Shown one piece after another: positions 1,633 to 46,038 of a stretch of 50,918 bases of DNA. Every line of letters starts with the position of its first letter. Within the stretch, counting starts at the first letter, position 1. Origin of the DNA: a virus; IMG/VR virus record IMGVR_UViG_3300010883_025052, positions 1-50,918 of that record. The stretch is one strand, 5' to 3'. The translations under genes and the position numbers were made by a program. The notes under the pieces were generated by a model. That model ran no database searches. It saw only the letters and a program-made list of their open reading frames with translations, and was not told where the DNA came from.

Positions 1633-1671
1633 TTAAATACCTACTTAACTTAGATATCGTAAACTTAAAAT

Positions 1672-1700
1672 TTGACATGTTCATTTTATTTCAGTATCTT
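1672..1700 (+). promoter_or_regulatory. Sigma-70-like promoter for phoH
   Basis: A perfect -35 hexamer TTGACA (1672-1677) is followed by a 17-bp spacer and TATCTT (1695-1700), a 4/6 match to the -10 consensus. It sits 18 bp before the phoH ATG at 1719, with TAGGG as a likely ribosome binding site. This looks like a host-type (early/middle) promoter. It is a sequence match only. Confidence 0.5.
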
Positions 1701-1718
1701 TTTTTTTAGGGTTTTAAT

Positions 1719-3026: not shown

Positions 3027-3265
3027 TTTAAAATATTTTGTACATCTAAATTAATATGTCTATATATCTGATCTACTGAATTGAACCTGATAATCTATTA
3101 ACTATAATCTATTAACTGATATCTAGTACATTAGTAGTTTTAGTATATAATATAGATCTATATAGATCAGATATCAGTAACTATAGATCTAGATCTTATA
3201 ATAAGATATATCAGATACTGTAGATCAGATATCAGTACTAAATACTATGAGATGGATGCCATTTA
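3027..3265. repeat. Gene-free AT-rich spacer with direct and inverted repeats
   Basis: No credible ORF lies between phoH and the glycan cassette. The stretch holds a 13-bp direct repeat TAATCTATTAACT at 3091-3103 and 3105-3117. It also holds a 17-bp direct repeat TAGATCAGATATCAGTA at 3163-3179 and 3221-3237, and a 13-bp inverted copy ATATCTGATCTAC (3064-3076) of GTAGATCAGATAT (3220-3232). A TATAAT hexamer occurs at 3146-3151 without a good -35. GATATC and AGATCT palindromes recur throughout. It could be an operator array, promoter region of the downstream cassette, or replication-related iterons; the sequence does not decide. Confidence 0.7.
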
Positions 3266-21571: not shown

Positions 21572-22303
21572 GTGAAAAAAAGAAAGAAGATAAGACGAGG
21601 AAAAAAAGGCGCGCCTCGTCAGATGTATTTTACCAAAGATACTCAAGCGTCTCTAGAAGAAATACTTGTTGAAACAGACGAGCTAAAGAAAAAAGAAATA
21701 TATCAAAAAGATGTTCAGCCGGCGTTTTCGAAACTAGCCGAAAACTTAATTTTGGTTTATGGTTTTTCATCTCCTTATGAATCATTTTCAGAATTACAAA
21801 ATGACTGTATTTCATTTATGTTTGAAACAATTCATAAATGGGATCCTACTCGTGGTACAAAAGCATTTTCATATTTTAACGTTGTTGCAAAAAACTGGTT
21901 AATTGTACGATGTAGAAAACATAAGAAAATGCAAATAAGAAATGTTAGTATAAGTAATCCAAGCGAAATGACACATCGTCAAAAAGTTGTTCTGGAATCA
22001 CATAGTACGATACCTCCACCAGACGAAGTAATGATCCTCGCACTTCAGAGACAAGAGATAATGAATGTGATGGAGGATATTAAGGGGGTAATAACCTCTG
22101 AAACTGAGAAAGTTTGTCTAAGTGCAATAAAGACTGTTTTTGAAAATATTGATGATTTAGATTTTTTAAATAAGAGAGCTGTATTAGTCTATATACGGGA
22201 AATCTCTGGACTTCCACCAAAGAGGTTATCCGTTGCCATGTCATCAATTCGCAGACATTATAGAAAGATAGTAGGGCCAGATAAAAAGTTTTCTTTATTT
22301 TAG
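21572..22303 (+). CDS. gp55: Late-transcription sigma factor, T4 gp55-like
   Basis: A 243-aa protein with a sigma region-2-like core. SFSELQNDCISFMFETIHKW (about 71-90) is followed by DPTRGTKAFSYFNVVAKNWL (91-110), the pattern of gp55 of T4-type phages and of minimal sigma-70 region 2. In T4, gp55 directs host RNA polymerase to late promoters together with gp33 and the sliding clamp. The N-terminus is strongly basic (KKRKKIRRGKKGAPR). GTG at 21572 is used, with GGGGA about 10 bp upstream; ATG 21623 is an alternative without a good ribosome binding site. The gene directly precedes the tail block. Confidence 0.8.
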   Translation: MKKRKKIRRGKKGAPRQMYFTKDTQASLEEILVETDELKKKEIYQKDVQPAFSKLAENLILVYGFSSPYESFSELQNDCISFMFETIHKWDPTRGTKAFSYFNVVAKNWLIVRCRKHKKMQIRNVSISNPSEMTHRQKVVLESHSTIPPPDEVMILALQRQEIMNVMEDIKGVITSETEKVCLSAIKTVFENIDDLDFLNKRAVLVYIREISGLPPKRLSVAMSSIRRHYRKIVGPDKKFSLF

Positions 22304-25098: not shown

Positions 25099-25608
25099 AT
25101 GTCTATTATTTCGACAAAGAATCGGCGAGAATTTTCATTTAAGAGTGTTGGTACACCTCGTTCCTCGAGGAATAAACAAAGACTAGTAGATGAAGAGAAG
25201 AAAAAGTCTATACCTGTAGGAGTAAAGACGCCTCTGCGTTTAGCATCTGATAATTCTGGTTTATTATATATGAACAAGAGTGTGTCTGATCAGATCAAGG
25301 ATAATTTTCGAAATATGCTTATGACTAATCATGGAGAAAGGCTCGGTCGACCGGATTATGGCGCAAATTTATTGCCATTATGTTTTGAGTTAGCATCGGA
25401 TAATGGTGATGCTAGGGCTCAAGAAAGAATAAGGAGGGCAACATCTAAGTATTTTCCTTATATAACACTGGTATCATTTGAACCTATTGTTGAAAATTTT
25501 GATAATGAACATGTTTTGAGAATAGGCGCAAAGATTATTTATAAGATACCTCGTTACACCAATGATTTAGATCATATGGTCGAATTTTTAATTTTTTATG
25601 CGGGTTAA
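25099..25608 (+). CDS. gp25: Baseplate wedge subunit, gp25-like
   Basis: A 169-aa protein whose C-terminal 100 residues match the GPW/gp25 family. SVSDQIKDNFRNMLMTNHGE is followed by RLGRPDYGANLLPLCFE, where the E-R-x-x-x-P-x-F/Y-G element is the family hallmark, and RYFPY-like SKYFPYITLVSFEPI. gp25 nucleates sheath polymerisation and joins the wedge to the tail tube in T4. The N-terminal 60 residues are a basic, Ser/Lys-rich extension. It is followed after 5 bp by the gp6 homologue, as in T4-type phages. Confidence 0.9.
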   Translation: MSIISTKNRREFSFKSVGTPRSSRNKQRLVDEEKKKSIPVGVKTPLRLASDNSGLLYMNKSVSDQIKDNFRNMLMTNHGERLGRPDYGANLLPLCFELASDNGDARAQERIRRATSKYFPYITLVSFEPIVENFDNEHVLRIGAKIIYKIPRYTNDLDHMVEFLIFYAG

Positions 25609-25613
25609 TATTA

Positions 25614-27467
25614 ATGAGTAGTAATAAACTTAGAGGAAAACTCAAAAAGTCTAGGGAAAGAAAATATCTTGCAAGAGATTTTGAGGGTTTTAGAAATCAA
25701 ATATTAGATTATGCAAATCTACATTTTTCAGACAGAATCCAGGATTTCTCAGAAGGATCTTTTGGAGGCTTATTACTTGATATGGCATCGATTGTAGGGG
25801 ATTCGTTATCATTTTATCTAGATCATCAGTTTCATGAGCTTGATCCAAATACTGCAATTGAGACTAAGAATGTGATAAGGCACCTACAGACTGCCGGTGT
25901 TGAAATAAGAGGCGCGGCACCAGCAACTGTTCGTGGAACAATATTTGTAGAAATTCCAGCCGCAAAAGATTCTTTTGGCCGGTATATCCCAACAAAGAAT
26001 TTAGTGCCAATAATTAATGCTGCTTCAACATTTGTTTCAAATTCTGGAATTGTATTCAATCTAGATGATGATACAGATTTTTCAGAAAAAAATGAAGACG
26101 GCGTTTTATTAGCAAAGGTAACAATATCACAAAAGGATACGGTATCTGGTCTACCTACACATGTAATATTATCTCGGGAAGTTGATTTAATATCCGGTGT
26201 TGAAACTGAGGAATCTTTTTTAATAGGTGATAATCATATACCTTTTAGGGAAATTTCTTTAAATAATTCAAACGTATCAGAGATATTAAGGATTTTTGAT
26301 AGTGACGGAAATGACTGGTATGAAGTTCAGTCTCTGGCACAAGATACAATTTTTAGAGGTAATCCAAATGAAGAAGAAGACAATGTTCAAGTACCAATGG
26401 AGCTTGAAATTATTCCAGCCCCTAGAAGATTTGTAGTAGTCAGAAACCCATCATTAAATACAGTAAAACTAAGGTTTGGTTCGGGTGCGGCAGATACACT
26501 TGACGATGATATAGTACCCGATCCTAGTGAATTATCAATGCCACTATTTGGGAAGACGACATTTTCTAGATTCTCCATTGATCCTAATTCATTATTAAAG
26601 ACAAAGACAATGGGAATGTCACCTAGAAATACTACAATATTTGTTGTCTATAGATATGGGGGCGGCTTATCTCATAATATAGCAACAAAAAGTTTGGTAA
26701 ATATAGGTGATTTACAAATGAGGTTTGTGGGTAGTCCAGCAGTAGCCGATGCTGTCGATGTCAGGGGATCTGTAGGGGTTCGAAATTATTATCCAGCATA
26801 TGGGGGTGATGATGCCCCATCATTAGAAGAACTACGATCAATGATAACGGCATCTAAACAATTACAGGGTAGAATTGTTACAAAACAAGATCTTCTTGCG
26901 AGGATACATACATTACCATCAAAGTTTGGTAGGGTTTATAGGGCGGCAATACGACAAGATCCTTCAAATCCCTTGGGATCTCAATTGTTTATATGTTCTA
27001 GAGACAGTAAGGGAAACCTAGGTTTAAGTCCGGACATGCTAAAAAGGAATCTATCTAGATATTTGAATGAGTTTAGGTGTATAACGGATAGCTATGATAT
27101 TTTAGATGCAATGATTGTAAATTTTGGAATAAGGTTTGGAATAGTTTGTGCCCAGAATGTTAATAAGGCGGCAACGATAAAGAAATGTATACAGGCTATA
27201 TCACCGTTGGTCCGCAGAGAGATGTATCAAATTGATCAGCCTCTTGTATATGATGATTTTGTAAATGCAGTAATCAATGTTACGGGAGTTGTATCACTAG
27301 CAGAATTAAAAATAATTCCAAGAATGGGAAGCATCGATGGTCGTAGCTATTCCCTACAAAATTTTAAATTTAAAAATGCAACTAAGGATCGGATGATCTT
27401 TGGTCCAAAAGGTTCAATTTTTGAAATGAAATTTCCACTTTTTGACATAGTCGGCTCAGCCGTATAA
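25614..27467 (+). CDS. gp6: Baseplate wedge subunit, gp6-like
   Basis: A 617-aa protein. The N-terminus has YLARDFEGFRNQILDYANLH and FSEGSFGGLLLDMASIVGDS, which match the start of T4 gp6-family (baseplate J-like) wedge proteins. The central part carries LRFGSGAAD, the G-D/S-G segment of the J-like core, and the C-terminal third (IVTKQDLLARIHTLPSKFGR) matches the domain that joins neighbouring wedges. gp6 forms the inner ring of the baseplate. The gp25-gp6 order and 5-bp spacing support the call. Confidence 0.9.
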   Translation: MSSNKLRGKLKKSRERKYLARDFEGFRNQILDYANLHFSDRIQDFSEGSFGGLLLDMASIVGDSLSFYLDHQFHELDPNTAIETKNVIRHLQTAGVEIRGAAPATVRGTIFVEIPAAKDSFGRYIPTKNLVPIINAASTFVSNSGIVFNLDDDTDFSEKNEDGVLLAKVTISQKDTVSGLPTHVILSREVDLISGVETEESFLIGDNHIPFREISLNNSNVSEILRIFDSDGNDWYEVQSLAQDTIFRGNPNEEEDNVQVPMELEIIPAPRRFVVVRNPSLNTVKLRFGSGAADTLDDDIVPDPSELSMPLFGKTTFSRFSIDPNSLLKTKTMGMSPRNTTIFVVYRYGGGLSHNIATKSLVNIGDLQMRFVGSPAVADAVDVRGSVGVRNYYPAYGGDDAPSLEELRSMITASKQLQGRIVTKQDLLARIHTLPSKFGRVYRAAIRQDPSNPLGSQLFICSRDSKGNLGLSPDMLKRNLSRYLNEFRCITDSYDILDAMIVNFGIRFGIVCAQNVNKAATIKKCIQAISPLVRREMYQIDQPLVYDDFVNAVINVTGVVSLAELKIIPRMGSIDGRSYSLQNFKFKNATKDRMIFGPKGSIFEMKFPLFDIVGSAV

Positions 27468-32100: not shown

Positions 32101-32603
32101 AACTGGATGGACTGGTTGATCAGGGTGTCAGCCTTGCACCGGTGCATAGAACACCTCCAGGAGAAAAACCGGCAGCAGATAAAAGGTTTTCAATAGAAGT
32201 ATCCAGTGTTCAGGCATTAAATGAGGATATTATAAATATTTTATCATCACTAGAGTCTTTCGACACATATATTGGTGCACCAAACAACATGTATGCAGAG
32301 CAATATAAGGATTTGGCACACTTAAGAAACATATACTTTAATAGGTTAACTGATAAGATCAACATAAAGTTATTTTTTGAATTTTTTAGATGGTTTGATG
32401 GTACGATATCAAATTTCTTAGACTCACTTGTTCCACGAAAAACAAACTACATTGGTTCTAATTTTGTAATAGAGGGTCATATTTTGGAACGTGCAAAGGT
32501 ACAGTATAGAAATGCAGACATATATCTGGCACCAAATGATAGACATGCAATAAGTGATACATTATTATTACAACAGTTAGTAGGGGCCTTTCGGAGAATC
32601 TAG
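29130..32603 (+). CDS. Large baseplate structural protein with two LamG-like domains
   Basis: A 1157-aa protein. The first LamG/concanavalin-like domain spans about residues 165-335 (KSFTIELKLNPSKL, HVAIVFNRGSEPP, GAIDELRVYHKG). A central tail-type region has WLQGVNL near 535 and ELPEIIQSKGTIHSIKVLMR near 567-586, reminiscent of tail-fibre-connecting baseplate proteins of the P2 gpI type. A second LamG-like domain runs from about 678 to 890 (ASWTYEAIYQFPRRKLF, GSIGHIRFWSKAL). The C-terminal FFEFFRWFDGTISNFLDSL and LVPRKTNYIGSNFVIEGH look like a conserved assembly domain. Role: wedge/adaptor with possible glycan binding, inferred. Confidence 0.7.
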   Translation: MSRDKLITFAKGKLFNPFMIRHYRSSKSGIKNFSASLLTGSISGFTSSFLYDAPGTGLKSTQQLRLDFSKFENHVFFSSAEVKVNESFEKIINGYPFDGRREEITNYFSSLTGYEKYIYDSFPKNRGFLWFNSTQKTFINIKDIAGGANPSLSKRSDAGSILDPEEKSFTIELKLNPSKLSTDVGNAVVLQHLTSDKSRGYTLYLSESIASSNSQKLNFVISSGSLATSASMTLARETFQHVAIVFNRGSEPPTIEMWKDAVLQTRSTDNIEFGGMDLMSRPMMIGSGTVHNAAPDRTIIPAQTLTGAIDELRVYHKGQPYKHIKAFQDASVFPDDTLKLYLKFNEPTGSYTSNDYVLDYSGNSLHSQITNYDMSQRTLSGVEIPVKSEEISLNPVLFPTYPDLITLNSNLLYSASLYDANNPNIITKLVPKHYFLEAAQFEGFDPSKELGNITDDYSYHTDFPAGGKMGQPHIMAAILFTWSKFFDELKQYIDQFGDLRNPDHTSYNTVPDQFLPILAGTYGFHLPDFFANSNLKQWLQGVNLTTSVGVQQDNLLNIQNEIWRRILSELPEIIQSKGTIHSIKVLMRTMGIEPDQNFRFREFGGSRTRYLATDVRQNRSEVSTMLDMSSSFNPKGTLGYQGFDSDRPHIISPALAATRTSPGWPHMHKTSSLTDKLLTTASWTYEAIYQFPRRKLFEYPVTQSLVRFSVTGTNAASNKHGMVLNLCAVSGTIAENRTGSLTLNIRPEMGTSKPTMVLPLTGVNIFDGKKWHISFGRIRRDQFSSILTSSYFLRVASVDRDVKLKVYSSSFGFNDLKGTYENMFENGISSQTKYNANGLYFVIGSQSLAGNNNFLNSKDQFRKTTHFHGSIGHIRFWSKALSGKETLEHAKNFKSVGVDDPKINFNFVTNISGSFERLRIDTSTDQPLTNSSATGALPIFDFSQNNFHLSGLGFENNKRIIKPERFMYSILTTRFDESQTDDMVRVRSFKKLDGLVDQGVSLAPVHRTPPGEKPAADKRFSIEVSSVQALNEDIINILSSLESFDTYIGAPNNMYAEQYKDLAHLRNIYFNRLTDKINIKLFFEFFRWFDGTISNFLDSLVPRKTNYIGSNFVIEGHILERAKVQYRNADIYLAPNDRHAISDTLLLQQLVGAFRRI

Positions 32604-35600
32604 ATGAATGTTGATAGGCTAAATAGAATAATAAAACACATGCAGTCTGGCTCTTTGTCAACTGCAAAATTCCAGTCGGGCTCTCTAGAGGAAAAAGAGT
32701 TTGGTGATATAAATCGATTCTTACAAGGTGTTAATTTACGGACGTACGGTAATCATTTATTACGAGGGTTCGGTCGTATACGAGGAATAGGAGAAGATCA
32801 AGAGGTTAGAATATCCTCAGTACCGCTATCTCCACCCAAGTCTTACTTTACAATTACCGTTGGTGCTTCGGCTACGAAGGCTAATCTTCATGGTACATAT
32901 TTTTGGCTTCCTCATATAGAGAGTCTTAACCCCGCAATCGATGGCTATAAAACGTTTACGTTTGATCAGGCCGTATTAAATGTGTCAGGTACGACAATCA
33001 ATAAAATTGGATTACTTAATGCTAATACACCTCATGATATATCCGCTAGAATAATAGAGTCAATTAATAATGATCACTTCCATGGTGTAACGCCGTTTAG
33101 ATTAACGGCTACCGACGATTCGGGCGCAGCCGCCGCCGGCGCACCTCACGCAATTCGTTTTGATTTTGATAAGCCCGGTTGGCCACCCCTCGAGCGTGGA
33201 CGCAATGCCCGGTGGTGGCATAACAAAGGGGCCATCTCTCGTCTATTGCAAATAACAGGAAGCACTAATAGTCGTTTTCGGAGGTATGCTAGCGAAGGTG
33301 TCGTCTTGAATCGGGCATATGTAGAGTTTAATGAATATGAGTGGGTTATTGGTCAAAAGAGCGAGTTAGTAACAAAATCACCAAACCACTTTAATGATCA
33401 GCGGGTTCCTGTTTTTCCAATATCTGAAGCGGATGTATATAGCTTTACGGGATCCATGGATTTCACCGGTGGTCGATATTTAGCACGTGATGGTCAACAA
33501 TTAATACACCCACATCCAGACATAGATCCCTATGTCCTGCCAATGCTAATACTTTCAGAAAGAGAGAATATTTTATTTGTATTTTCTTCTCATATTAAAG
33601 ATCAGACACCCGGTAACAACTATGTTAGTGACAGGAAGCGCCCTAGGATCACTAAAATAAGGTTATTGCAGGAGGCATTATTTTGTGGAGCCGAACATTA
33701 CAATCGGTGTTATGCTGAGTGGAATGGTATCGAAAGATTAAACATTCGTTATAACTATGAGGATATTGCCGAGGCTAGCCTACTTGCTAAAGCCTATGTT
33801 GATAGGACAAATTCTCCCGAGTGGAAACACTTAATGAGAGATGATACCCCGTTTTACCAGATTGATGTACAACTACCTGCCGCCGGCACGGGTGCCGATC
33901 TTGGTCTAAACGTCCAGCGGATGGCTGGTAAGGTGAGTAGTACTATTAATCGTATTATGGGTATGAACCACCCCCTCACATCGTCAATGCCAATCAACGC
34001 TCGAAAGGGCGGCCCCACACAAACAAGGCCAAACTATCCTCTAGGTAGGGTTAAACTTACGACAACCGGTAAGGGTGCTTTTGCCGGATATGGTCGACAA
34101 ATATTAACAATGTCAGCTGTACCTGCGTCGGATAGTTCTAATAGCAATCTATATCTGCAGGGTTCAACAGCTGAAATGACGATAGGGCATGGTAATATAC
34201 ATTATAATAACCCTGGACATGTTACTGCTGCCACGGTAGCCGCCGGCTTAAATGGGAAGTTTTTGGGGTTGACATCATCTGACGGCACAACAATGCAATA
34301 TGTATTTGATACGTCGGTCGCAGTAAATGCCTCGGCCAACAAAATAGGGCTGTCAGGAGTTTCATACGTAAAAGATATTGCAAACCGCATTAAGGACACT
34401 ATTAATAATACAGCAACTCACGCTGCATCAGCAGGTACTGATCCAAAAATTAGTTGTACCTATGCATTTAGTAGCCTGGGTTCAAATGATGATACTATGA
34501 GAATACTTTGTCTACACCAGGACGCGACCGGGTTTGCCGGAAACAAACCAGTATTTTTAAGTCCTAGTACTAACCAAAAGCATTTGACTGTGACTAATTT
34601 TGTTGCTCCAACATTAAATATCCAGCAGTTTTCTGGCAAGTTTGGTAGGGTTACCGGATCAATTGCAACCCTGGGTTCTGTAGCTGCCATGTTAAGGCTA
34701 GAAGGAAAGCTAAACGGAGAAAAACAATTTCAAGTTGTACCTGGTTTCGCACATGTTGAAACATTCGGCCAGTCAACCCCGGAGTCCGATGATCAGGATG
34801 GAAAACCGTACGCAGATAAGGATGGTCACTTACAGGTAGTTATCAGATACCTGTCGAAGTCATTGAATGACCCAGACCTGACGCGTGTGACCCACGCAGG
34901 AATTATCCATGGGTCAATATTAAACCCATTTACAAGTGCCTCAAATGGAAGAATTGACACCGGTGTTTCACTGATGCAGATTAAGGCAGCTAATCAGTAT
35001 GACGCTCTAGCACCCAACGTAGTGGGTTCGATTTATAGGCCGTCTGCATTATCATCCAATATATTAATGCACCAATCCAGCCTATGGCCAGTACATACTG
35101 CCAGCAGCGGTTTGCTTCATAGGAATCAGTTAATGAGATGCTACAGAGTGTCTGCTGGATTTTCTATTAATGGTGGGTTCAACCAAGGTACCGGTCGTTA
35201 TGATCAGTTTTCAAGTGTAGTAGTATCGGATCAGATTGATAATGCTCATAATCATGAACAAGATCCATTTATTGATAAACCCGTGTTTATTAATGATCCA
35301 AAACAGTTTACATTAAAACATTACGTGGTGGGAAAGTCTATAGTTGTAAATCCCACAAGTTCGCGAGGTACTTTTCTCGCGATCGCTGAAGGTGGGGGTA
35401 CTGCAGGAGCAATGGATGTGACTAGGTTGAGCCATGGGATAGTTGATAAGTCTCCATTCGTTGATAATCACGATGCAGAGATAATTTATGATATGCCATT
35501 ATCACACCCAAGAAAAACCCTTACTGTCGGTTCAGGCGGTACATTTCAAGAGTTATTGTTTAGTGGTACGTTGTCAGCCAGTTTGTCTATGAATAGTGAT

Positions 35601-35702
35601 CTTCGACTGAATCATCGATTTACAACTTCTGGTTTCGTATATGGTAAGACAGATACCGGCAGGGACTCGATATCATTCGGAGGTCTAGACAGAGATGGCT
35701 AG
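32604..35702 (+). CDS. Large tail structural protein carrying the recurring 130-aa module
   Basis: A 1032-aa protein whose ATG follows the previous stop directly. The recurring domain occurs twice. A divergent copy at about residues 84-190 contains NKIGLLNANTPHDISARIIE, and a canonical copy at about 539-668 contains GLNGKFLGLTSSDGTTMQY and THAASAGTDPKI. Between them are unrecognised regions rich in Tyr, Arg and Asn. No enzyme motif was seen. It overlaps the next gene by 8 bp (ATGGCTAG). It is probably a baseplate-periphery or tail-fibre-network protein together with the flanking large proteins. Confidence 0.6.
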   Translation: MNVDRLNRIIKHMQSGSLSTAKFQSGSLEEKEFGDINRFLQGVNLRTYGNHLLRGFGRIRGIGEDQEVRISSVPLSPPKSYFTITVGASATKANLHGTYFWLPHIESLNPAIDGYKTFTFDQAVLNVSGTTINKIGLLNANTPHDISARIIESINNDHFHGVTPFRLTATDDSGAAAAGAPHAIRFDFDKPGWPPLERGRNARWWHNKGAISRLLQITGSTNSRFRRYASEGVVLNRAYVEFNEYEWVIGQKSELVTKSPNHFNDQRVPVFPISEADVYSFTGSMDFTGGRYLARDGQQLIHPHPDIDPYVLPMLILSERENILFVFSSHIKDQTPGNNYVSDRKRPRITKIRLLQEALFCGAEHYNRCYAEWNGIERLNIRYNYEDIAEASLLAKAYVDRTNSPEWKHLMRDDTPFYQIDVQLPAAGTGADLGLNVQRMAGKVSSTINRIMGMNHPLTSSMPINARKGGPTQTRPNYPLGRVKLTTTGKGAFAGYGRQILTMSAVPASDSSNSNLYLQGSTAEMTIGHGNIHYNNPGHVTAATVAAGLNGKFLGLTSSDGTTMQYVFDTSVAVNASANKIGLSGVSYVKDIANRIKDTINNTATHAASAGTDPKISCTYAFSSLGSNDDTMRILCLHQDATGFAGNKPVFLSPSTNQKHLTVTNFVAPTLNIQQFSGKFGRVTGSIATLGSVAAMLRLEGKLNGEKQFQVVPGFAHVETFGQSTPESDDQDGKPYADKDGHLQVVIRYLSKSLNDPDLTRVTHAGIIHGSILNPFTSASNGRIDTGVSLMQIKAANQYDALAPNVVGSIYRPSALSSNILMHQSSLWPVHTASSGLLHRNQLMRCYRVSAGFSINGGFNQGTGRYDQFSSVVVSDQIDNAHNHEQDPFIDKPVFINDPKQFTLKHYVVGKSIVVNPTSSRGTFLAIAEGGGTAGAMDVTRLSHGIVDKSPFVDNHDAEIIYDMPLSHPRKTLTVGSGGTFQELLFSGTLSASLSMNSDLRLNHRFTTSGFVYGKTDTGRDSISFGGLDRDG
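34221..34608 (+). other. Recurring structural module, copy in the 1032-aa protein
   Basis: About 129 residues with the shared pattern LNGKxLGLTxSDGT, FDT, NASANKIGLSG, DIxxRIxxTIN, THAASAGTDPKI, ND and GxxxLTVTNF. It aligns by eye with copies in two other genes (36442-36846 and 44899-45292). The protein pattern is conserved while codons differ extensively, so the duplication is old or the copies came in separately. Confidence 0.8.
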
Positions 35703-38700
35703 AGATATTGAAAATGAAAAAAAGCTTCCTGATTATGGAAGTACATGGGTACCTATAAGCAACCCATTGATTAGGTACACCAAGGCTGATGCCGCTGCGT
35801 GTGAAGTACAGGTGGCTAGCCTTGTCTGGGTACAGGTAGCCTCTAGCAACTCATTATTGAGTACCGGCTTAAACCACCTTGGCCTTGCACACAACCTACA
35901 GATATCTGACACTGCACACCGCGGTGCAATAGATGGGCATGCGTCAAGTGGTGTAGTCGCAGTTAGGCTAACAGGCTCGAACCAACATGTCTCGGGTAAT
36001 CTTTGTGCACCACATATAAGTGGTTCATTCTCTTCACCCTATTCAAGACATTTATGGTTTTCCGGTACCTTTGGAAAATTCTGGGACGCGTCCACTATGT
36101 GGACAGCGGCAACACAAAAGAAGTACAGGTGGAGAATAGGGTCAATATACAGAAACATCGTTTCTCCCACGACGGCATCACACCAGTGTATGATAATTAC
36201 TGGATCACATGCTAATCTAAACCTGTACAAGGCAACAAAGAATAACATATCAGGCCCGGCATCATTTACAATTGCTGGCTGGTTTAAGTTTCATAATGAT
36301 GGTGAGGCCGATCACGGCCGATCACTCTTTAGGTTATCTCTTGCTAGCGGGGCTGATACACCTTTCATTGGTAGAGATGGGAATATAGATTTCGCGACCA
36401 CCGGTCTCTTTAATACTGGTTCATCTCCCGACGCCGCGGCCGTCGGGACACTCACGGTTCAGGCCGGGGTGCCTGTGACTGTCGCAACAAATTTAAACGG
36501 AAAGAAACTAGGGTTAACGGCTTCTGATGGCACAAAAATAGAGTATATATTTGATACTGCAAAAACCCTGAACCAGACAGCGAATAAGATAGGCCTATCC
36601 GGTATAACTACGATAGATGATATTTCCGATAGGATCATTGCGACGATTAATGATACTAGTACCCACGCAGCATCAGTAGGAAATGATCCAAAAATAGCAG
36701 CAGCTGATGCATCTGGTGTCGCTGGTGACAATGATGCGCACCCAATATCGCTAACGCAGGATGATGTAGGCCACCGCGGTTTGCGTACGGTATATTTTGA
36801 TGCTAGCGCAACATATTTGACAGGTACAAATTTTTCTGGGCCTAAGTTTGGTGCACTTCACAGATCACAATCTTTTGGTGTTAATGCATCCAATAAGGCA
36901 AATTTGGCAGTCGGCCAAATTGCAAACGTACATGGAAACGGATCAGTATCCCCATATCGGTTTGAATTATTTCATGCTAGTTATCCAAAGAGGGGACAAA
37001 ATTTCTTATCTGTTAATTTTTTGTCAAAGGATCAATCTTCTAGGATGTTTGTAGCATCGACAATTCCTTTAACTACGTCACTGGGGGTTGTCGATAAGGA
37101 TAAAAGAAAAATTGATCAGATGTCGGTTGCTAGTTTATCAAATGACTGGTTTCATATTGCGGTTACTTTCAATAATCAAGCGCACTACGATGCACAGTCT
37201 GCTAGCAGGGTAACTCCGGCAACAACGGCAACAACGGTCTATTTGAACGGTGTGAAGTTATACAATCAAAGATTTCCACAGGAGCCAAAATCAACAGCTT
37301 TTCCTCAATCTGATGGTATGATAGGCGATTTTGGAAATCAACCGCTGAATTTAATTGTGGGCGGTCCGGATGTAGACAGAAAGAGTATGTCCTGGTCACA
37401 TATCGGCTTTTGGAGAAAAACACTATCAGAAGATAGTATAACGGCATTATACGAAGCCAGGAACGGTGTTACATATAGCAAGAAATCTGGTAAGCTAACA
37501 ATGCCTCCACGGCTACAAATGGCTTATAATGAAGATGTGGAGTGGCATTCTAGGTTGAGATCGACAACCACGGTACCTGATGCATTTGTTGAAGATAAAT
37601 CGGCAATAGACTATCAAACATCATTCTCATCAATCGAGCTTGATTTTTCTAGTCTAATAGTCTCTGGTGATGATACAACATTTAGGGGTATGCATCTTTA
37701 TATTACTTCTTCTCATCCAACTGGTAGTAGGACAACTGATAAGGTAAGTCAGTTTTCCCCTACAAGACGTGGTTGGACAAACCTCGCCAAACACAAAGTT
37801 ATAAAGTACATGTCGGGAAATTTTGCTAATTCCATAGGCACAATTCAGGATGACGGATCACACATTAATCGTGTATACATGGGTCATTCTGCTACCGGCC
37901 GCATCAAGCTAGCAGATGGCTTAGGCGCCGCTGATAACGGATCAGTGCTTGTCGTGACGGCCGCAAACGGTGATCGTCCGGACGGTCGATTTATCAGAGG
38001 AAAAATAAAGAGATATATCTTTACCAAGGATGTTAATTTTGCCACCAGTGATCTTATGGTTGCTAGTAGTTCTGCCACTGTCGTGAAGTATGTAGCTGGA
38101 TCCACAACAACACAGATTGCACAGCAGTTACAGGCTGCTATAAATTCTACAAACGGAAACAATGTTAATGTACATAACTCAGTTATAAATCTTCACAGGC
38201 TTGATAACATTATCCACCTAACACAGCAAGTATCAGGCGCATGTGGTAATACAAACATAGAGACACCATCATTGAATTCTGGCCTTTTTTCCATTGCCAG
38301 CTTTAGCACGGGTGTTGACAGGGAAAGAATCAATTTTGGTGTGAAACCATCTGATGATAGTGAAACAACGGTTCAGAAGTTTCTTGTTCAGTTGGCTGCA
38401 GCTATAAATAAGTCCAAGGCCGGAATGAGGGCAACACTATTATCATCGAACCCTGGTAAGAGGTTAAGGTTGGAGTCTGCCAGACCGGGTGATCTTTCAG
38501 ATAAATTTCGCGTGACATTTACCAATAAGAAGAATCGTTATAATTTTCCAAAGCTTAAGGGCCAGAGACCGGCCACAGGTAGTGTAGTTGAAAATACTAT
38601 GATTAATACTACCTTAAGCCCACCTCGGATTAGTTTTCGATTTTCAAAATCAAGAATTGCTACTGGTAGTTTTTTGTTTGGCGTTAATAGATCAATTGAG

Positions 38701-41700
38701 ACGTCCAGGACAAAGTATCAACCAATATTTGACAGGATGCTCCCAGATATTACAGGTAGTGGTATCATGAGATCAGGCAATCAATCCTTGTTTTTGTCTG
38801 AGACGTTACCAAAGGCTACACCATTTAATGAAGCTTCTCATCCAGAAATATTTGGATTTAATCAGTTAAAAAGATCAACTATATATACTTCATCTTATGA
38901 TGCAAAATTAACGAATAATGCCTATCATTCTGCATCATTTGGAGTGTCGGAGGGTCATGGGATCCGAATGTCTATGGATTCTGATTTATTTGTAACAGGG
39001 ACATTATCTAACAGAGGCCTGCATAGGTTAGGGCCGTCAAATTCTTTGAGAATGAATTCTCAAGATCACATAGTGATAGATCTACCAATTACAGCATCAA
39101 ATCATTCAAGTGGATCGGGAAAAAACTGGCGAGGCTCATCAGATGCCGGCACTGCTGGTAGCTCACGATATATGTACATAAGTGGGGCAACTAATGTTAA
39201 TCATAATATGGGCTATTATAATTTTAGCGCTAAGTGCTGGAAAGGTGTTGGCCGAGGCCTAAACGCAGCCGAAGCCGAAGCCGAGTGGAAATATTTAAAA
39301 AATGGAACAAACCAATATACCACTGATCAACAAATACAATTTTATCTTGATCAACAAATAAAAGGGTTTGGACAATCAACAGACAACTTGCTGCAGAATG
39401 CATCAATAATTAATGGGGGCTCAGGGTTTCAACGTGGGTTAAGACTAAGAGATGATTCCAATAATAATCTTCAGACAAAACTTTTGGTCCAAGAAACAGG
39501 GCTAGCACCGGCAATTAATACATATGGGTTTCCTTCCCATGGAAAATTTCATCTATCAGATGATGAAACTATACGTGTTAAAGACTACATTGGCACTGAC
39601 TCATTTTTATTAGAGAATGTATTCCTGGAGTTTTCTGCATCTTACGAAATCAGGAACTGGGGTGGGGCCTTGCCCGACTGGTGTAAAAGTGCTGCTGCCA
39701 GCTTGAACGAGATAGAATCATCAACATTTACATTTTTTCTATTGAACCAAAGAAAGGCGAATCTTAATTCTGATATAGAGAATGAAACAATCAAGGCTAT
39801 ATTTGGTACCGGAGACATCAACACGGTCCATCTAGACAAGCCAAATGATGATATAGTCCAGGTTCCAGATACTAGTTCACCGTATTCATATAAGGTACAG
39901 ATACCCACGAACATAGTTACGACATCATCTATTTCTGTGGCAACACTCACGAATACAACAAAATATGTCGACAGTATTAGGGATCTAGTTGCATACACCA
40001 GGGTAGGATTCTTTTCATCTGATGTTGACGAACAAGCTAATAAGTATCATCCGGATATTACTCAACCAATCCAGCAAATAGATGTACCGATCACATCATC
40101 AATCCCTAATGTGAAAACACATTCCGGTGATGGTTCGGACGGTAAAGGCCTCAAGCACGTTACGATTCAAATAAGTGGATTTATACCATTAATTCCTCGG
40201 TCACCAGGTTTAGGTCCTGGATTTAGCGATTTTAGGACCCCAATCCCACAATATAATGCCGATCCCACCTCTGGTAGTCTGTCAAATGAGAACATATTAC
40301 AACGGTATACGCGAGGATCAAGGAATGGGTTAGGGTTGTCAACTGGTCGTGCACCTTTTGGTGGTGAATTCTCAGGTATTAAAAAAGATTATGAAGTAAG
40401 AACATTTCGAAATATTGCCATGGCTATAGCACCTGAAAATATGGATGATGAAGTACCTTATTTATTAAAGCCTGAAGATAAGCTAATATTAGGGATTCAA
40501 CTTCCTACGTCATACATGTCGCATGCAAATTTCAACGACCACTTAGTAAGTTTTAATCCTCAAGTAATGAGACTTCACTTCTTTGGTGGTCCAATCAGAA
40601 ATAATGTGATTACACCTACAAAGAAAATATCTGAAGACGACCTATTTTATACTGATGCCGTTCATGATGTAATAGGGATCGACAATATTTTTGATCAATT
40701 TGATACTGAGCCAAACTTTACACAACCTGGAACATATACTGATAAAATCATAACCGGCTCAATGATTAGTGATGAAGTTAAGAGTAGTACTAACATTTCT
40801 ACTGGAAGGAAGAAGATAGGGAACTTTACCGAAATAGGAGGGTGGGTTACTAGCAGTTTTCCTAGAAATGTTAGGTTATTATCTGATGAGATTTATTATG
40901 ACTCGCTAGTTCCAAACTTCGCAGAAATGTTCGGGATCATCAATGCTAACGTGATGGGCTTAAGTATACATGATAGTACCATAACTGGTGAGGCCGCGGC
41001 CGGGGGTGCTTCACCACGAATAGGGATATCTGACGTTAATCTAAATGATGATGCTAATCGTGCTGCAAATACTCCTGGTGCAAGATCAAAACAGTTTGTA
41101 ATTGCGATACACAGTCCCAGGATTCCAACATTTTCGACGACCATTAGTGGTACGGCTGTAACATTCATGAGTCCTGCATTATCGGGAGCTAATGGTACTT
41201 ATTTTGGTGCAATAAATAAGTCTGCCGGTGCAGCTGGGACCGTAGGATCAACCCCTTGGCCATTACATGTTATTGGGGGTGAGAAAACTGCACCATGTAC
41301 ATACTATACGGATGCTATTAAACCTGGACTAGTTGATAATTGGTATACCTGTTTTCCTTTTGAACCTAAATTTTTGAAATTAAAGAGAGTTACGACACCC
41401 ATGAATCGTGATGATTTTATGATGACAGAGGCTGACTTTGTTCCAAACATCCACCCATCCGGTACACAATGTAATGCATTAGTTGGGGGTACAAAGAGAA
41501 CACCAGATTTATTATGTTTTGCTAGCCCATTTTTGTACCCTCCGATATTAGAACACTTATATCATATACCTAAGAAATTTAGCAAAGGAAAAACCCACCC
41601 TTCATATGAGAGACTATATAGCCAGAAAATGGTTACGATGACTAGTCCCTATACAACAAATACTGCTATTCCTGGTGGTGATAGTGGGATAACCCATTTT

Positions 41701-42315
41701 TCTAGTGTTGGAGTTATAACTGCCGGTGCCGCGAAATATACATCTGGTATATATTCAAATGCAAATCTTAAGGGCGGAAATTTAGATAGATGGAATAGGG
41801 CTTTGTTTGGGTTTGGTGATATTCCAGGGGGCATACCCAGATCCTTGGCCACCCCTGGGTTTATGCCTGTCATGACACAGTCAGCAGGAACCCTGACACC
41901 AAGATCTGCAGCAGAGGTAACGGATGCAAGTTTTCATCCTGACTCTATTGATTATTATAGAGGGGTAGAACTCCGCGGATTGAGGTATGGGTTAATAAAT
42001 TATCAAAAACAGCCACTATCATGTGTCTTCCGTCGAGATCGTTATGGCCAGTTTAGGGATATGCTGGAACAAAGATTAGATTCTAGAATTTTTAAAAATG
42101 GGGAAATTGAAGATAAGGCTCCGGTTAATGTTGTTTTTATGAAGAGGCCTGATTTAGAATCAGGTATACGTAGCTCTACGACGCCAACCGATACAAACAG
42201 CTCGAATCTTTCACAATTTGCAACATCTTCTTTACCATATTTTGATGGTCAATTTAGAGATAGAGCAGATCAAGAACCAGACATTAGAACAATTCTAGAA
42301 GTATACATAGATTAG
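35695..42315 (+). CDS. Giant tail/baseplate structural protein with LamG-like domain
   Basis: A 2206-aa protein, the largest in the window. A LamG-like domain starts near residue 190 (SFTIAGWFKFHNDGE) and resumes near 484 (WFHIAVTFNNQ) to about 590 (WSHIGFWRKTLSED). Between these halves sits the recurring 130-aa module (about 249-383). A further divergent copy appears near 750-870 (RYIFTKDV, TTTQIAQQLQAAINSTN). The C-terminal half has ordered but unrecognised regions and ends with RRDRYGQFRDMLEQRLDSRI. There are no internal stops or frameshifts over 6.6 kb. A structural scaffold or fibre-base role is inferred. Confidence 0.65.
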   Translation: MARDIENEKKLPDYGSTWVPISNPLIRYTKADAAACEVQVASLVWVQVASSNSLLSTGLNHLGLAHNLQISDTAHRGAIDGHASSGVVAVRLTGSNQHVSGNLCAPHISGSFSSPYSRHLWFSGTFGKFWDASTMWTAATQKKYRWRIGSIYRNIVSPTTASHQCMIITGSHANLNLYKATKNNISGPASFTIAGWFKFHNDGEADHGRSLFRLSLASGADTPFIGRDGNIDFATTGLFNTGSSPDAAAVGTLTVQAGVPVTVATNLNGKKLGLTASDGTKIEYIFDTAKTLNQTANKIGLSGITTIDDISDRIIATINDTSTHAASVGNDPKIAAADASGVAGDNDAHPISLTQDDVGHRGLRTVYFDASATYLTGTNFSGPKFGALHRSQSFGVNASNKANLAVGQIANVHGNGSVSPYRFELFHASYPKRGQNFLSVNFLSKDQSSRMFVASTIPLTTSLGVVDKDKRKIDQMSVASLSNDWFHIAVTFNNQAHYDAQSASRVTPATTATTVYLNGVKLYNQRFPQEPKSTAFPQSDGMIGDFGNQPLNLIVGGPDVDRKSMSWSHIGFWRKTLSEDSITALYEARNGVTYSKKSGKLTMPPRLQMAYNEDVEWHSRLRSTTTVPDAFVEDKSAIDYQTSFSSIELDFSSLIVSGDDTTFRGMHLYITSSHPTGSRTTDKVSQFSPTRRGWTNLAKHKVIKYMSGNFANSIGTIQDDGSHINRVYMGHSATGRIKLADGLGAADNGSVLVVTAANGDRPDGRFIRGKIKRYIFTKDVNFATSDLMVASSSATVVKYVAGSTTTQIAQQLQAAINSTNGNNVNVHNSVINLHRLDNIIHLTQQVSGACGNTNIETPSLNSGLFSIASFSTGVDRERINFGVKPSDDSETTVQKFLVQLAAAINKSKAGMRATLLSSNPGKRLRLESARPGDLSDKFRVTFTNKKNRYNFPKLKGQRPATGSVVENTMINTTLSPPRISFRFSKSRIATGSFLFGVNRSIETSRTKYQPIFDRMLPDITGSGIMRSGNQSLFLSETLPKATPFNEASHPEIFGFNQLKRSTIYTSSYDAKLTNNAYHSASFGVSEGHGIRMSMDSDLFVTGTLSNRGLHRLGPSNSLRMNSQDHIVIDLPITASNHSSGSGKNWRGSSDAGTAGSSRYMYISGATNVNHNMGYYNFSAKCWKGVGRGLNAAEAEAEWKYLKNGTNQYTTDQQIQFYLDQQIKGFGQSTDNLLQNASIINGGSGFQRGLRLRDDSNNNLQTKLLVQETGLAPAINTYGFPSHGKFHLSDDETIRVKDYIGTDSFLLENVFLEFSASYEIRNWGGALPDWCKSAAASLNEIESSTFTFFLLNQRKANLNSDIENETIKAIFGTGDINTVHLDKPNDDIVQVPDTSSPYSYKVQIPTNIVTTSSISVATLTNTTKYVDSIRDLVAYTRVGFFSSDVDEQANKYHPDITQPIQQIDVPITSSIPNVKTHSGDGSDGKGLKHVTIQISGFIPLIPRSPGLGPGFSDFRTPIPQYNADPTSGSLSNENILQRYTRGSRNGLGLSTGRAPFGGEFSGIKKDYEVRTFRNIAMAIAPENMDDEVPYLLKPEDKLILGIQLPTSYMSHANFNDHLVSFNPQVMRLHFFGGPIRNNVITPTKKISEDDLFYTDAVHDVIGIDNIFDQFDTEPNFTQPGTYTDKIITGSMISDEVKSSTNISTGRKKIGNFTEIGGWVTSSFPRNVRLLSDEIYYDSLVPNFAEMFGIINANVMGLSIHDSTITGEAAAGGASPRIGISDVNLNDDANRAANTPGARSKQFVIAIHSPRIPTFSTTISGTAVTFMSPALSGANGTYFGAINKSAGAAGTVGSTPWPLHVIGGEKTAPCTYYTDAIKPGLVDNWYTCFPFEPKFLKLKRVTTPMNRDDFMMTEADFVPNIHPSGTQCNALVGGTKRTPDLLCFASPFLYPPILEHLYHIPKKFSKGKTHPSYERLYSQKMVTMTSPYTTNTAIPGGDSGITHFSSVGVITAGAAKYTSGIYSNANLKGGNLDRWNRALFGFGDIPGGIPRSLATPGFMPVMTQSAGTLTPRSAAEVTDASFHPDSIDYYRGVELRGLRYGLINYQKQPLSCVFRRDRYGQFRDMLEQRLDSRIFKNGEIEDKAPVNVVFMKRPDLESGIRSSTTPTDTNSSNLSQFATSSLPYFDGQFRDRADQEPDIRTILEVYID
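36442..36846 (+). other. Recurring structural module, copy inside the LamG domain of the giant protein
   Basis: About 135 residues (TLTVQAGVPVTVATNLNGKK onward to YLTGTNFSGP) interrupt the LamG-like domain between its first strands and the WFHIAVTF strand. Key shared motifs are LNGKKLGLTASDGT, ANKIGLSGITTIDDISDRII, THAASVGNDPKIAAAD and NDAHPISLTQ. The insertion boundaries are approximate. Confidence 0.75.
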
Positions 42316-42327
42316 TAAGGAATTAAT

Positions 42328-42333
42328 GGAGGT
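42328..42333 (+). promoter_or_regulatory. Strong ribosome binding site of the fibre gene
   Basis: GGAGGT with a 7-base spacer (ATAAAAG) before the ATG at 42341 is the closest match to the ideal Shine-Dalgarno sequence noticed in the window. It suggests that the downstream fibre protein is made in larger amounts than the giant protein before it. Confidence 0.6.
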
Positions 42334-42340
42334 ATAAAAG

Positions 42341-43087
42341 ATGGCAGATGTTGTCATAGAAGATTCTAGAATTCCGATGCTTGAGAAAATCGTCGCTAGA
42401 AATAGGGCTAACGGTAAGATAGTAAAAGTTATATTCCCGAATAGAATGCAGATAGGTCTTACAAATGCAGCCGGATCTTTTACTGGTGGTGTAACAATAT
42501 ATGGCGATCTAGAAGTTAAAGGTACCTTTGATGCAGCTGCAGGTGGCATATCTGAGGCAGATGTTTTAGAAATATTATCAAATAACAACTACGTAAACCA
42601 GGCATATCTAACAACTTATGGGTACATAACACAGGCTACTCTTTCATCACAATTGGGAAGTTATGCCAGCATTGCATTCTTGACGGCAAATAATTATATA
42701 ACGTTATCATACTTACAAAGCAACAAGTATATTGCAATAAAAGAACCCACTGAGACTACAGTGTCGAATGTTGCTGCCGGCGCAACTGGCACGGCAACAA
42801 TATCAATGTTTCAATCAGGGACAATAGACTTCTTACAGTTAACCTCCTCGGCTAATTCAACAAACTGTGACATAGAAATATATGGTGATGCTTCTTATAC
42901 AAGATCTACATTAAACTACAAAGCGGTGGGCATAAATATGTCATCACCAGGTACGTCATATGTTGATAGGGTACCATTCGTTTACTTCACCGGTGAAGGC
43001 GATACAAATTTATATTGTAAGATATATAATAACGGAATAACGGCCCAAACTTATAAAGTTCGAGTAATAGGGAAGGGAATGGTATAA
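42341..43087 (+). CDS. Tail fibre / short-fibre-like protein
   Basis: A 248-aa protein. The N-terminal IPMLEKIVARNRANGKIVKV and IGLTNAAGSFTGGVTIYGDLE segment resembles virion attachment domains of phage fibres. A central repeated pattern follows (LTTYGYITQATLSSQLGSYA, LTANNYITLSYLQSN), characteristic of fibre shaft repeats. The C-terminus (TVSNVAAGATGTATISMFQS to the end) looks like a small beta-sandwich tip. It is preceded by a strong ribosome binding site and overlaps the next gene by 1 bp (TAATG), which suggests a fibre-and-tip pair. Confidence 0.7.
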   Translation: MADVVIEDSRIPMLEKIVARNRANGKIVKVIFPNRMQIGLTNAAGSFTGGVTIYGDLEVKGTFDAAAGGISEADVLEILSNNNYVNQAYLTTYGYITQATLSSQLGSYASIAFLTANNYITLSYLQSNKYIAIKEPTETTVSNVAAGATGTATISMFQSGTIDFLQLTSSANSTNCDIEIYGDASYTRSTLNYKAVGINMSSPGTSYVDRVPFVYFTGEGDTNLYCKIYNNGITAQTYKVRVIGKGMV

Positions 43088-44214
43088 TGCCAACTACAAG
43101 AATATACCCATATCAATTACATGCTAATAATAGGTGGATATGGTATTTTGTGAGATTTATAACGGGGGCTGATTCAACATATACAGGTCCGGGCTGGAAA
43201 ATTATTGACTCGTATAGTTATGCCGGCACTCGTCAGGATGCACCGATCGGTGGCACTAGCAGTTCAAATTTACATGATTCTAATGGTTGGAATTCTAGTC
43301 ATGTTAATAATGCTGGGGGTATTCGTGTTAATTCAGGCGATTGGATAGTGCTCAGTACCAACCGTGGAGGTTCTAATACTGAATGCCAGGTATATATCAA
43401 GATATTCCAGGCCACTGCAACCTCGTTGCAGTATACACACTTTTATCTTTTGCCCCTAGCTGATTATGTCGCGGGAACCGCACCTGTTGAGAGAAACATC
43501 GATTTGAAGGGGTTAGGTTTGGTCATGTTGGGGACAAGCGGTACCAGCATGGCATCAGGCTTTAAGAATTGTATGGGGGGAGTTCCCTCTGATCCCGCGA
43601 AAAATATACCTCTTCCTGGTTTATATGACATGACAGATGGTGAAGGTTCCTATTGGGGCTACGAGAATAACCAAGCGGGAACTACGTATAACTTTCATTA
43701 TCACAGGTCCCACGGCACCTGGAATCAATCGGAGAGATTTTCTTTTATAGCTGATGAAGCTACATGTGTTATTTGGTGGACTGATGAGAGCTCGGCCAGT
43801 TTTCTTTATCTTGGGTTGTTTGATTCAATTTACTTATCATCAGAGGATACCCGACCTTTTTGTATAGGAGGTGGCCATGGCAATTCAAATGATCCCTATT
43901 ATGGCGGGTTTAATCGTTATTCGACAGGCCAAACAGTTAGTGGATCACACACCTTAAGAGTAGCCGCCGATGTACAGAGTGCATTGACTGGCTATCCCGG
44001 TTCACCATTCGGAAAAAAACCTATATTACCATGGGGAGTTCACACATATGGTGCTGCATATCAAGGATTTCAAGGTTATCTTAGATTATTTTGGGCTAGT
44101 AATGAAAATCTAGGCTTAATGGGAACGCTGCAGGATAAAAATTATTGTTTTCATTCTCATGGCGACGCTTACACATCGCGAGTCCATCCATGGGATGGCG
44201 TGACTGATTTATAA
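43087..44214 (+). CDS. Putative receptor-binding / fibre-tip protein
   Basis: A 375-aa protein rich in Gly, Ser, Tyr, Trp and Asn with little charge, the composition of beta-rich adhesins. Examples are WIWYFVRFITGADSTYTGPG and GGGHGNSNDPYYGGFNRYST. No enzymatic motif was recognised. Its start overlaps the stop of the fibre gene (TAATG), so the two are translationally coupled, as is usual for fibre and tip or fibre and chaperone pairs. Its aromatic-rich surface would fit carbohydrate binding; this is inference. Confidence 0.6.
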   Translation: MPTTRIYPYQLHANNRWIWYFVRFITGADSTYTGPGWKIIDSYSYAGTRQDAPIGGTSSSNLHDSNGWNSSHVNNAGGIRVNSGDWIVLSTNRGGSNTECQVYIKIFQATATSLQYTHFYLLPLADYVAGTAPVERNIDLKGLGLVMLGTSGTSMASGFKNCMGGVPSDPAKNIPLPGLYDMTDGEGSYWGYENNQAGTTYNFHYHRSHGTWNQSERFSFIADEATCVIWWTDESSASFLYLGLFDSIYLSSEDTRPFCIGGGHGNSNDPYYGGFNRYSTGQTVSGSHTLRVAADVQSALTGYPGSPFGKKPILPWGVHTYGAAYQGFQGYLRLFWASNENLGLMGTLQDKNYCFHSHGDAYTSRVHPWDGVTDL

Positions 44215-44239
44215 TGTAGTTTAGTTGACGGGAAAATAG

Positions 44240-44479
44240 ATGCCAGTAACAGGAAGCTATGCAGCATTTGATGCAACATTTGGAGGTGTTGCGGTATTAA
44301 TAGGGTATTATACTGCATCCATAGCAGGTTCGGGCGGCTTACGTCGTCCTGAAGCACAGGTAGCTTATGCATTTTCTAAAAAAATGATTCATTTTACTCA
44401 CCGTATATTTCCGGTAATTCCATCTGAGAGAATAGTTGTAGATAAAGGCGCATATGGTTCCGGATCGTATGGTATTTAA
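44240..44479 (+). CDS. Small protein, unknown, in the fibre region
   Basis: A 79-aa protein with GACGGGA about seven bases before the ATG. It reads MPVTGSYAAFDATFGGVAVL, then IGYYTASIAGSGG, and ends KGAYGSGSYGI. It is Gly/Ser/Tyr-rich with a moderately hydrophobic N-terminal half. The opening MP and composition resemble the upstream tip protein, so it may be a small virion or fibre-accessory protein. No family was recognised. An 80-bp AT-rich gap follows, with no clear promoter or terminator. Confidence 0.55.
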   Translation: MPVTGSYAAFDATFGGVAVLIGYYTASIAGSGGLRRPEAQVAYAFSKKMIHFTHRIFPVIPSERIVVDKGAYGSGSYGI

Positions 44480-44559
44480 ACTAAGTCTAATTTCACGCCT
44501 CAAAAAAAATATATATAGTAATATTTATCTGTGTTATTATTCTTTGACTGAGGTTTGTT

Positions 44560-46038
44560 TTGACAGGTATTTTAGATAGTAAGTCCCGAGTTTTAGATTT
44601 TATACTCACGCAAGAAGGCCGAAACCAGATGGTGGCTGACCGGCTGGAGTTTTCTTTTGCATCATTCACCGATTCCGCGTGCTTTTATAGATCAGGTTCT
44701 GACTCTGCGGCAGACGAAGCATCTGACAGAATATATTTTGAAGCAGCTTCTTCTCCGTTTGATCAGATCATTATTGAGAGAGGTCCGGAAGGACAATCGA
44801 TTACTGGATTTGGTGTATCGACCGGTAGTATAAGAGTTGTAGGTGAAAGCGTATATCGAAAAGGTGAATCATTTACGAATGCTTTTCCAAAGGCTACGCT
44901 GACTATTCCATCAGCCTCTGTCCCAGCAACCGTTGCATCGAATTTGAATGGGACATTTTTAGGATTAACAGCATCAGACAATACGCGGATGCAGTATTCA
45001 TTTGATACAACCGCAGGGTTAAATGCTTCCGCAAATAAAATAGGTTTATCTGGTATAAAAACGATAGATGATATATCAAGTAGAATCGTATCAACAATTA
45101 ACAGTACAATATTACATGCAGCATCAGCTGGTACAGATCCAAAGATCACAGCTGCTGACTCATCCACAATATCAACGTCTAATAATGATGCACACTCAAT
45201 ATCATTAATACAAAATACTCGTGGCCATGCCGGTCTAACCAACATTTTCATCACCGCTACATCAACATATTTAACCGGCTCAAATTTTAGTATTCCATAC
45301 TCAATTGAAGTTAGCGAGAATATGTCGGGAACACAAGTGATTGATAATGCAAAATTAATTGCGAAAGGTATATCTAACAACTTTATGAATTTAAGGATGC
45401 TGGGAGGGCTAGACCCGTTTTCTGATTCAAATAAGTTTGATATATCGATAAGTCATGGAAGCATAATTGATGATGAAAATATAGAGGTTGATTTCACAAT
45501 GTCTGACTCTATCCCATGGGACTTAGGGTCAGTAACGTCTGAGAGAGATAGGATTAGAGGGAACCTAGAAGATTCTGAGACGTTTTTTCAAGATAAGCGT
45601 ACGTCACATATGCCAAATTTTATGTATTTACCTCCAGTAAATAAACGTGATGCTGCCGGTGATAATATGAGCCTACCTTTAGCAACGTATGAAAATCTAA
45701 ACAGTATGCCAATACTCTCTTTAGATACACTTAATAGACAGTTTTATAATGAAGAGAAATTAGCATATAAAAAAGAATTTATTGACATTAATTTTACGGA
45801 CACATCACGTGATAATAACATCATGATTCAACCATTTGAGTTTCGAAATGCTAGTGTAAGAAAATTAGAGATAATAGACTTTGGCCAGTTTGTTGATGCG
45901 GATACCGGTCTATCACAACATGTATTTTTTGTCGGAAAGGTTTTTGTAGATCTGGCGGGTACATCAAAATTTATAAATTTATTTACCATTGTATGTTCAA
46001 ACCAAGAGAACTCTAGAATAGGAAATGGTGATATTTAA
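44560..46038 (+). CDS. Virion structural protein carrying the recurring module
   Basis: A 492-aa protein with a TTG start preceded by GAGGT. The first 100 residues (GILDSKSRVLDFILTQEGRN, FASFTDSACFYRSGSD) look like a compact structural domain, and ASSPFDQIIIERGPEGQ follows. The recurring 130-aa module spans about residues 113-244, and the sequence then resumes with SIEVSENMSGTQVIDNAKLI. The C-terminus (QFVDADTGLSQHVFFVGKVF) is a beta-rich end. No catalytic site was seen. It is coupled to the next gene by TAATG. Confidence 0.65.
   Translation: MTGILDSKSRVLDFILTQEGRNQMVADRLEFSFASFTDSACFYRSGSDSAADEASDRIYFEAASSPFDQIIIERGPEGQSITGFGVSTGSIRVVGESVYRKGESFTNAFPKATLTIPSASVPATVASNLNGTFLGLTASDNTRMQYSFDTTAGLNASANKIGLSGIKTIDDISSRIVSTINSTILHAASAGTDPKITAADSSTISTSNNDAHSISLIQNTRGHAGLTNIFITATSTYLTGSNFSIPYSIEVSENMSGTQVIDNAKLIAKGISNNFMNLRMLGGLDPFSDSNKFDISISHGSIIDDENIEVDFTMSDSIPWDLGSVTSERDRIRGNLEDSETFFQDKRTSHMPNFMYLPPVNKRDAAGDNMSLPLATYENLNSMPILSLDTLNRQFYNEEKLAYKKEFIDINFTDTSRDNNIMIQPFEFRNASVRKLEIIDFGQFVDADTGLSQHVFFVGKVFVDLAGTSKFINLFTIVCSNQENSRIGNGDI
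44899..45292 (+). other. Recurring structural module, copy in the 492-aa protein
   Basis: About 131 residues with LNGTFLGLTASDNTRMQYSF, NASANKIGLSGIKTIDDISS, HAASAGTDPKITAAD, NDAHSISLIQ and YLTGSNFS. It is closest by eye to the copy inside the giant protein (36442-36846). Together with the 34221-34608 copy it defines the module. Confidence 0.8.

Follow-up and report, generated by a model that had tools for sequence, protein, structure and literature searches.

A probable accessory insertion domain shared by tail proteins of an environmental phage

Promiscuous accessory domains on virion proteins, and sheath extension and FliD-like domains, are kinds of domain already known. The external extension domain of the Milano tail sheath spans residues 91-203 (PMC10811340), and the inserted domain of XM1 (InD) was earlier reported to be similar to domain D3 of FliD (PMC10457771). 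Promiscuous Ig-like domains of phages go back to Fraser et al. 2006 (cited through PMC9230969 and PMC10684548), and a part in adhesion or stability has been proposed for extra sheath domains as well as for Ig-like domains (PMC9230969). Here we describe a module that recurs in the tail proteins of a virus of bacteria. The DNA under study (the window) comprises an entire IMG/VR virus record (50,918 bases), which may be part of a larger genome. Most likely, the module is an accessory insertion domain that was duplicated between tail proteins and works like the promiscuous Ig-like domains without being classed as one. The copies are named after their carriers, proteins B, C and D:

32838..33191, + strand: divergent copy B1, aa 79-196 of a 1032-aa protein; pairwise E 1e-5 to 1e-9 with B2, C1 and D1
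34212..34613, + strand: module copy B2, aa 537-670 of the same 1032-aa protein; 50% identity to C1 and D1; family profile E 1.9e-6
36436..36855, + strand: module copy C1, aa 248-387 of a 2206-aa protein; 62% identity to D1; family profile E 4.5e-5; the copy used for structure prediction
37891..38325, + strand: C2, a wider-family copy, aa 733-877 of the same 2206-aa protein; family profile E 7.3e-9; PHROG 165 tail sheath E 4.5e-4
38326..38511, + strand: possible half copy after C2, aa 878-939; family profile domain E about 1, not significant
44890..45312, + strand: module copy D1, aa 111-251 of a 492-aa protein; single-domain insertion relative to homologues; family profile E 1.2e-4

The sequence-only reading of this DNA had placed one module at 34221-34608, 36442-36846 and 44899-45292. 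All three copies lie there in frame, in separate intact ORFs, and the motifs it quoted are seen in their alignment. B2, C1 and D1 (~130 aa) are homologous: pairwise identities are 62%, 50% and 50% (BLASTP E 3e-54, 8e-38 and 1e-36), and the copies match significantly in profile comparison, shuffled carriers (100 shuffles each) reaching E 3 at best with an HMM of the three copies. Two divergent relatives had also been suggested. The one at 32857-33180, B1, is weak but real, with 30-36% identity to B2, C1 and D1; it scores weakly with the family profile described below, its membership coming via pairwise similarity to the other copies only. The one at 37944-38310, corresponding to C2, was not matched by the HMM of B2, C1 and D1 and entered instead as a member of a wider family (E 7e-9). 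Beyond B1, the three-copy profile found no further significant copies in the six-frame translation of the record.

We sampled the wider family in IMG/VR with a single strict motif, LTQ..xGxxGNT.[IV], which returned at least 120 stretches. The same motif had four matches in 84,980 prokaryote genomes, one of which (L213) was clear by profile; it lies on a Euryarchaeota MAG contig of 20,962 bases, which may be a virus that was binned into the MAG. A family profile was built from 83 non-redundant viral sequences, window sequences excluded. This HMM, made from other viral contigs, detected C2, B2, C1 and D1 at E-values of 1e-4 to 1e-9 (individual values above), while shuffled carriers scored no better than E 16, and on iteration the four copies reached about 1e-12 to 1e-15, the later rounds including window copies. 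All four are thus members of the family. At the signature LTQ..xGxxGNT, C2 has LTQQVSGACGNTNI, while B2, C1 and D1 retain Q, G and G in the corresponding columns, with the conserved N replaced by L in C1 and D1. Counting copies per genome, another of the checks the first reading had proposed, gave 1-20 family matches per viral record, some partial, among records chosen for containing the family. The ORF at 1606-6330 of two records (L083 and L084) has seven full or partial copies in a row, in which truncated N-terminal pieces precede complete copies.

The family is promiscuous across unrelated virion proteins. One carrier is a tail sheath (L177; PHROG 23, E 2e-59) with the module at aa 271-387, another is a tail fibre with an endosialidase chaperone (L119), and two match the head-tail adaptor Ad2 (L121 and L139). 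Pfam, PHROGs and NCBIfam hold no model for it and gave scattered weak matches across 100 members; the commonest was PHROG 165, tail sheath, in 6 of the 100. Isolated Pfam and NCBIfam matches (FAM25, SDR and others) were discounted, being either under the cut-off or not consistent from one member to the next. Close relatives of the window module numbered zero in IMG/VR and zero in GTDB genomes, and tblastn against INPHARED gave no match, either with the window module or with C2 and four family members from other contigs. Whole protein D and whole protein B likewise found no relatives when used as queries against IMG/VR. A literature search, with thin coverage of subscription journals, found no paper naming the family. 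As a sequence family, and in its spread over several protein types, it is without a model in the libraries searched.

Upstream of the module carriers are two baseplate wedge genes:

25099..25608, + strand: second baseplate wedge gene (PHROG 43, 1.1e-8)
25614..27467, + strand: baseplate wedge protein (PHROG 219, 2.6e-6), the query for related contigs
32604..35702, + strand: carrier protein B, 1032 aa; its slot holds 270-297-aa proteins in most related contigs
35695..42315, + strand: carrier protein C, 2206 aa; two genes of relatives fused, plus an extra N-terminal part
44560..46038, + strand: carrier protein D, 492 aa; homologues are 313-325 aa and module-less

The wedge protein encoded at 25614..27467 led to 152 related viral stretches, 80 of which were kept as loci. 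Slot order in these relatives is mostly conserved, with proteins of ~1140, 270-297, 560-860, 370-470 and 313-325 aa, the first a homologue of the product of 29130-32603. The corresponding slots of the window hold 1157, 1032, 2206 (two slots fused, with an N-terminal part of ~985 aa) and 492 aa, and the modules are located in the surplus material of these enlarged tail proteins. Protein C matches two separate genes of the relatives at aa ~985-1660 and ~1665-2185, and its aa 1-985, which hold C1 and C2, are extra relative to them. Protein B shows faint similarity to its slot counterparts at both tips only. A Pfam and PHROGs search of the window carriers found no tail sheath match. By eye, C1 seemed to sit in a LamG context within protein C, but Pfam gave this no support, even with the module removed. 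The neighbouring 1157-aa tail protein (29130-32603) has a Laminin_G_3 (concanavalin-like) domain (E 2.9e-10). In one relative (L008), an ORF at 12911-13792 that resembles a GIY-YIG homing endonuclease by eye sits between two tail genes.

Protein D differs from its homologues by one domain. All seven that were sampled (L005, L010, L032, L027, L037, L030 and L039) align on both sides of the module and lack it, the missing piece being ~143 residues. When residues 109-251 were removed from protein D, short gaps at the junction were the only ones left against these homologues, indicating that protein D differs from them by the module and little else. The idea of an inserted module is thus upheld for the 492-aa protein; proteins B and C gave no clean empty site, because the homologous slots are too divergent. 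A profile of the window module matched none of 28 related viral records. The B slot of one relative (L017) has a weak family-like half domain, not significant. Since the baseplate tree places the window basal to its relatives, the polarity of gain and loss is not fully fixed by that tree alone, and the module could be ancestral in these tail proteins and have been lost by the sampled relatives. We regard such loss as distinctly improbable: the three copies, each from a different protein, group in a single clade, all seven homologues of protein D are cleanly without the piece, and no significant family domain was found in the stretches around the baseplate gene of the nearer relatives (L002-L041), the distant L058 being the only baseplate-gene locus with significant wider-family members. 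Gain in the window lineage is the simpler reading, and the one we infer.

We then considered how the copies are related to one another. Their codons had been described as strongly different, and this was borne out: nucleotide identity among the three main copies is 55-60%, and identical residues use the same codon at 34/83, 30/64 and 26/66 positions, where codon usage alone would give 32.6, 25.5 and 26.7; synonymous agreement is barely above expectation. Synonymous sites are therefore near saturation and the copies are old. The family tree, with 101 members, joined B2, C1 and D1 in one clade with support 100/96; C2 was placed apart from that clade, on a long branch, in a tree that has long branches and few columns. 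C2 is probably of separate origin. The original description, mobile or duplicated, stands in its duplication part, with the copies being old; overall, the first reading was correct on the copies themselves and in the main on what they are.

Conceivably, independent horizontal transfers from different phages, with no duplication within the genome, brought in B2, C1 and D1. The near-saturated synonymous sites would fit such a history, as would the separate grouping of C2 and the wide sharing of the family: among pairs of members from different records, about 20% are at least 40% identical locally. However, identity to C1 is 61% for D1 and 48% for B2 but at most 32% for sampled members from outside the window, and the three copies form one starred clade. 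Closer relatives of the three could be missing from the sample, since the sampling pattern is absent from these copies. On balance we consider separate acquisition unlikely. A general tendency for copies within a genome to be more alike across proteins was looked for and set aside: 8 of 29 cross-ORF pairs reached at least 40% identity, compared with 20% of between-record pairs (window excluded). Pairs within the same ORF do look enriched at 40% identity (43/108, window excluded). Under the duplication reading, in-frame copying inside the tail gene cluster would have placed one domain in at least three proteins, at a time remote enough for saturation of synonymous sites, and C2, at least one further copy from the wider family, would probably have arrived separately.

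Structure prediction, a further check proposed at the outset, yielded a confident model of C1 once family rows were added. AlphaFold2 reached a pLDDT of 41 from four sequences, and a pLDDT of 87.5 with a pTM of 0.85 for C1 with 100 family rows; the model represents the family as much as C1, because the prediction is driven by those rows. It is alpha/beta, with a 13-residue helix between strands. The best solved match in Foldseek was the Mu sheath (entry 9ki1, E 0.019), and among predicted viral structures matches reached E 5e-6 and included baseplate J-like proteins. VIA-align paired the model with sheath residues 102-217 of Mu (Z 8.8), 94-204 of Milano (Z 7.4, 23% identity) and 99-217 of XM1 (Z 7.2); the sheath set of Milano, Mu, XM1 and E217 (92-214) spans Z 6.9-8.8 over the full domain length, for a predicted model and in a range (Z 7-9) that unrelated models can attain. 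Other matches were a tail protein of Sf14 (Z 8.1), Helicobacter FliD (Z 8.1) and T7-type nozzles (Z 5.8-7.2). The link in fold comes from consistency, namely whole-domain coverage, repeated sheath matches, the PHROG 165 matches and the sheath carrier L177, and from no single strong match. On the predicted model, the module resembles, and appears to share a fold class with, the sheath extension/insertion domain and FliD D2/D3; its whole-domain agreement with external sheath domains suggests that it belongs, by fold class, with inserted domains that face outward.

Among described systems, the module can be compared with four. The sheath extension and insertion domains (Milano gp20 91-203, XM1 gp6 InD and Mu gp39 102-217) have the same predicted whole-domain fold class, are likewise whole-unit insertions in a host protein, and have a counterpart in the family member that sits in a tail sheath protein. 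By contrast, the window copies lie in distal-tail proteins with no sheath match, and the module has marginal sequence similarity to sheaths of solved structure (profile E 0.067). Accordingly, we assign the module to the same fold class and do not classify it as a sheath extension domain. FliD D2/D3, of the flagellar cap, is similar in fold (Z up to 8.1 by VIA-align); FliD, however, is a cellular flagellar protein, and searches of Pfam, NCBIfam and PDB sequences found no FliD-type match to the module. The inserted domain of T7 gp12-type nozzles is comparable in fold, and two family members lie in the Ad2-matching proteins, although the nozzle is a podovirus adaptor and presents another protein context. 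Promiscuous phage Ig-like domains are likewise accessory across unrelated virion proteins and genomes, often with several per phage. The predicted fold of the module has the 13-residue helix, antibody chains are insignificant in Foldseek (E above 2), and no Ig-type Pfam match was found among 100 family members, although such an absence is no proof by itself.

The explanation that we favour, with a probability of roughly 0.7, is that the module belongs to a family of plug-in accessory domains, was duplicated within the tail cluster and serves as an add-on contact surface. It would be a self-contained alpha/beta accessory domain of ~130 residues, plugged into distal-tail proteins of a phage whose baseplate-wedge genes are like those of contractile tails, and would belong to a large unnamed insertion-domain family of environmental phages. 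The domains would extend outward from the virion and provide added contact surfaces, not enzymatic activity. Such a role is favoured because family-library searches found no credible enzyme match to the module, the tail-protein carriers are unlike one another, and the fold is external in sheaths. The proposal that the module decorates the tail surface gains indirect backing from the predicted fold match to external sheath domains and from the baseplate wedge genes upstream. By analogy, surface display would primarily let the phage adhere to the host surface, weakly and multivalently, with packing or stabilisation second. The domain might, alternatively, mainly stabilise the virion through lateral contacts between tail subunits and have no part in host contact, and extra sheath domains have indeed been proposed to cement neighbouring subunits (PMC9230969). 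We think this rather unlikely, as a common neighbour contact would not be expected of a domain found in sheath, fibre, adaptor and distal-tail expansions.

More tentatively, and with slightly less than even confidence, we suggest that the sheath extension domain, XM1 InD, the T7 nozzle insert and FliD D2/D3 are a single promiscuous superfamily, swapped and duplicated by phages among sheath, nozzle, fibre and baseplate-region proteins. If so, this superfamily, so far with no family model, would play in environmental phages the role that Ig-like domains play in cultured ones. Many large tail proteins of environmental phages are unannotated. One profile of the domain would label the at least 120 viral stretches recovered by the strict motif and would show where tail proteins grew by accessory-domain insertion. 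With the insertion in protein D and its module-less homologues, the effect of the domain on adsorption and stability can be tested by its removal. Elsewhere, the window has a PhoH-like gene (1719-3026), a glycosyltransferase (18755-20008) and a late sigma-factor-like gene (21572-22303).
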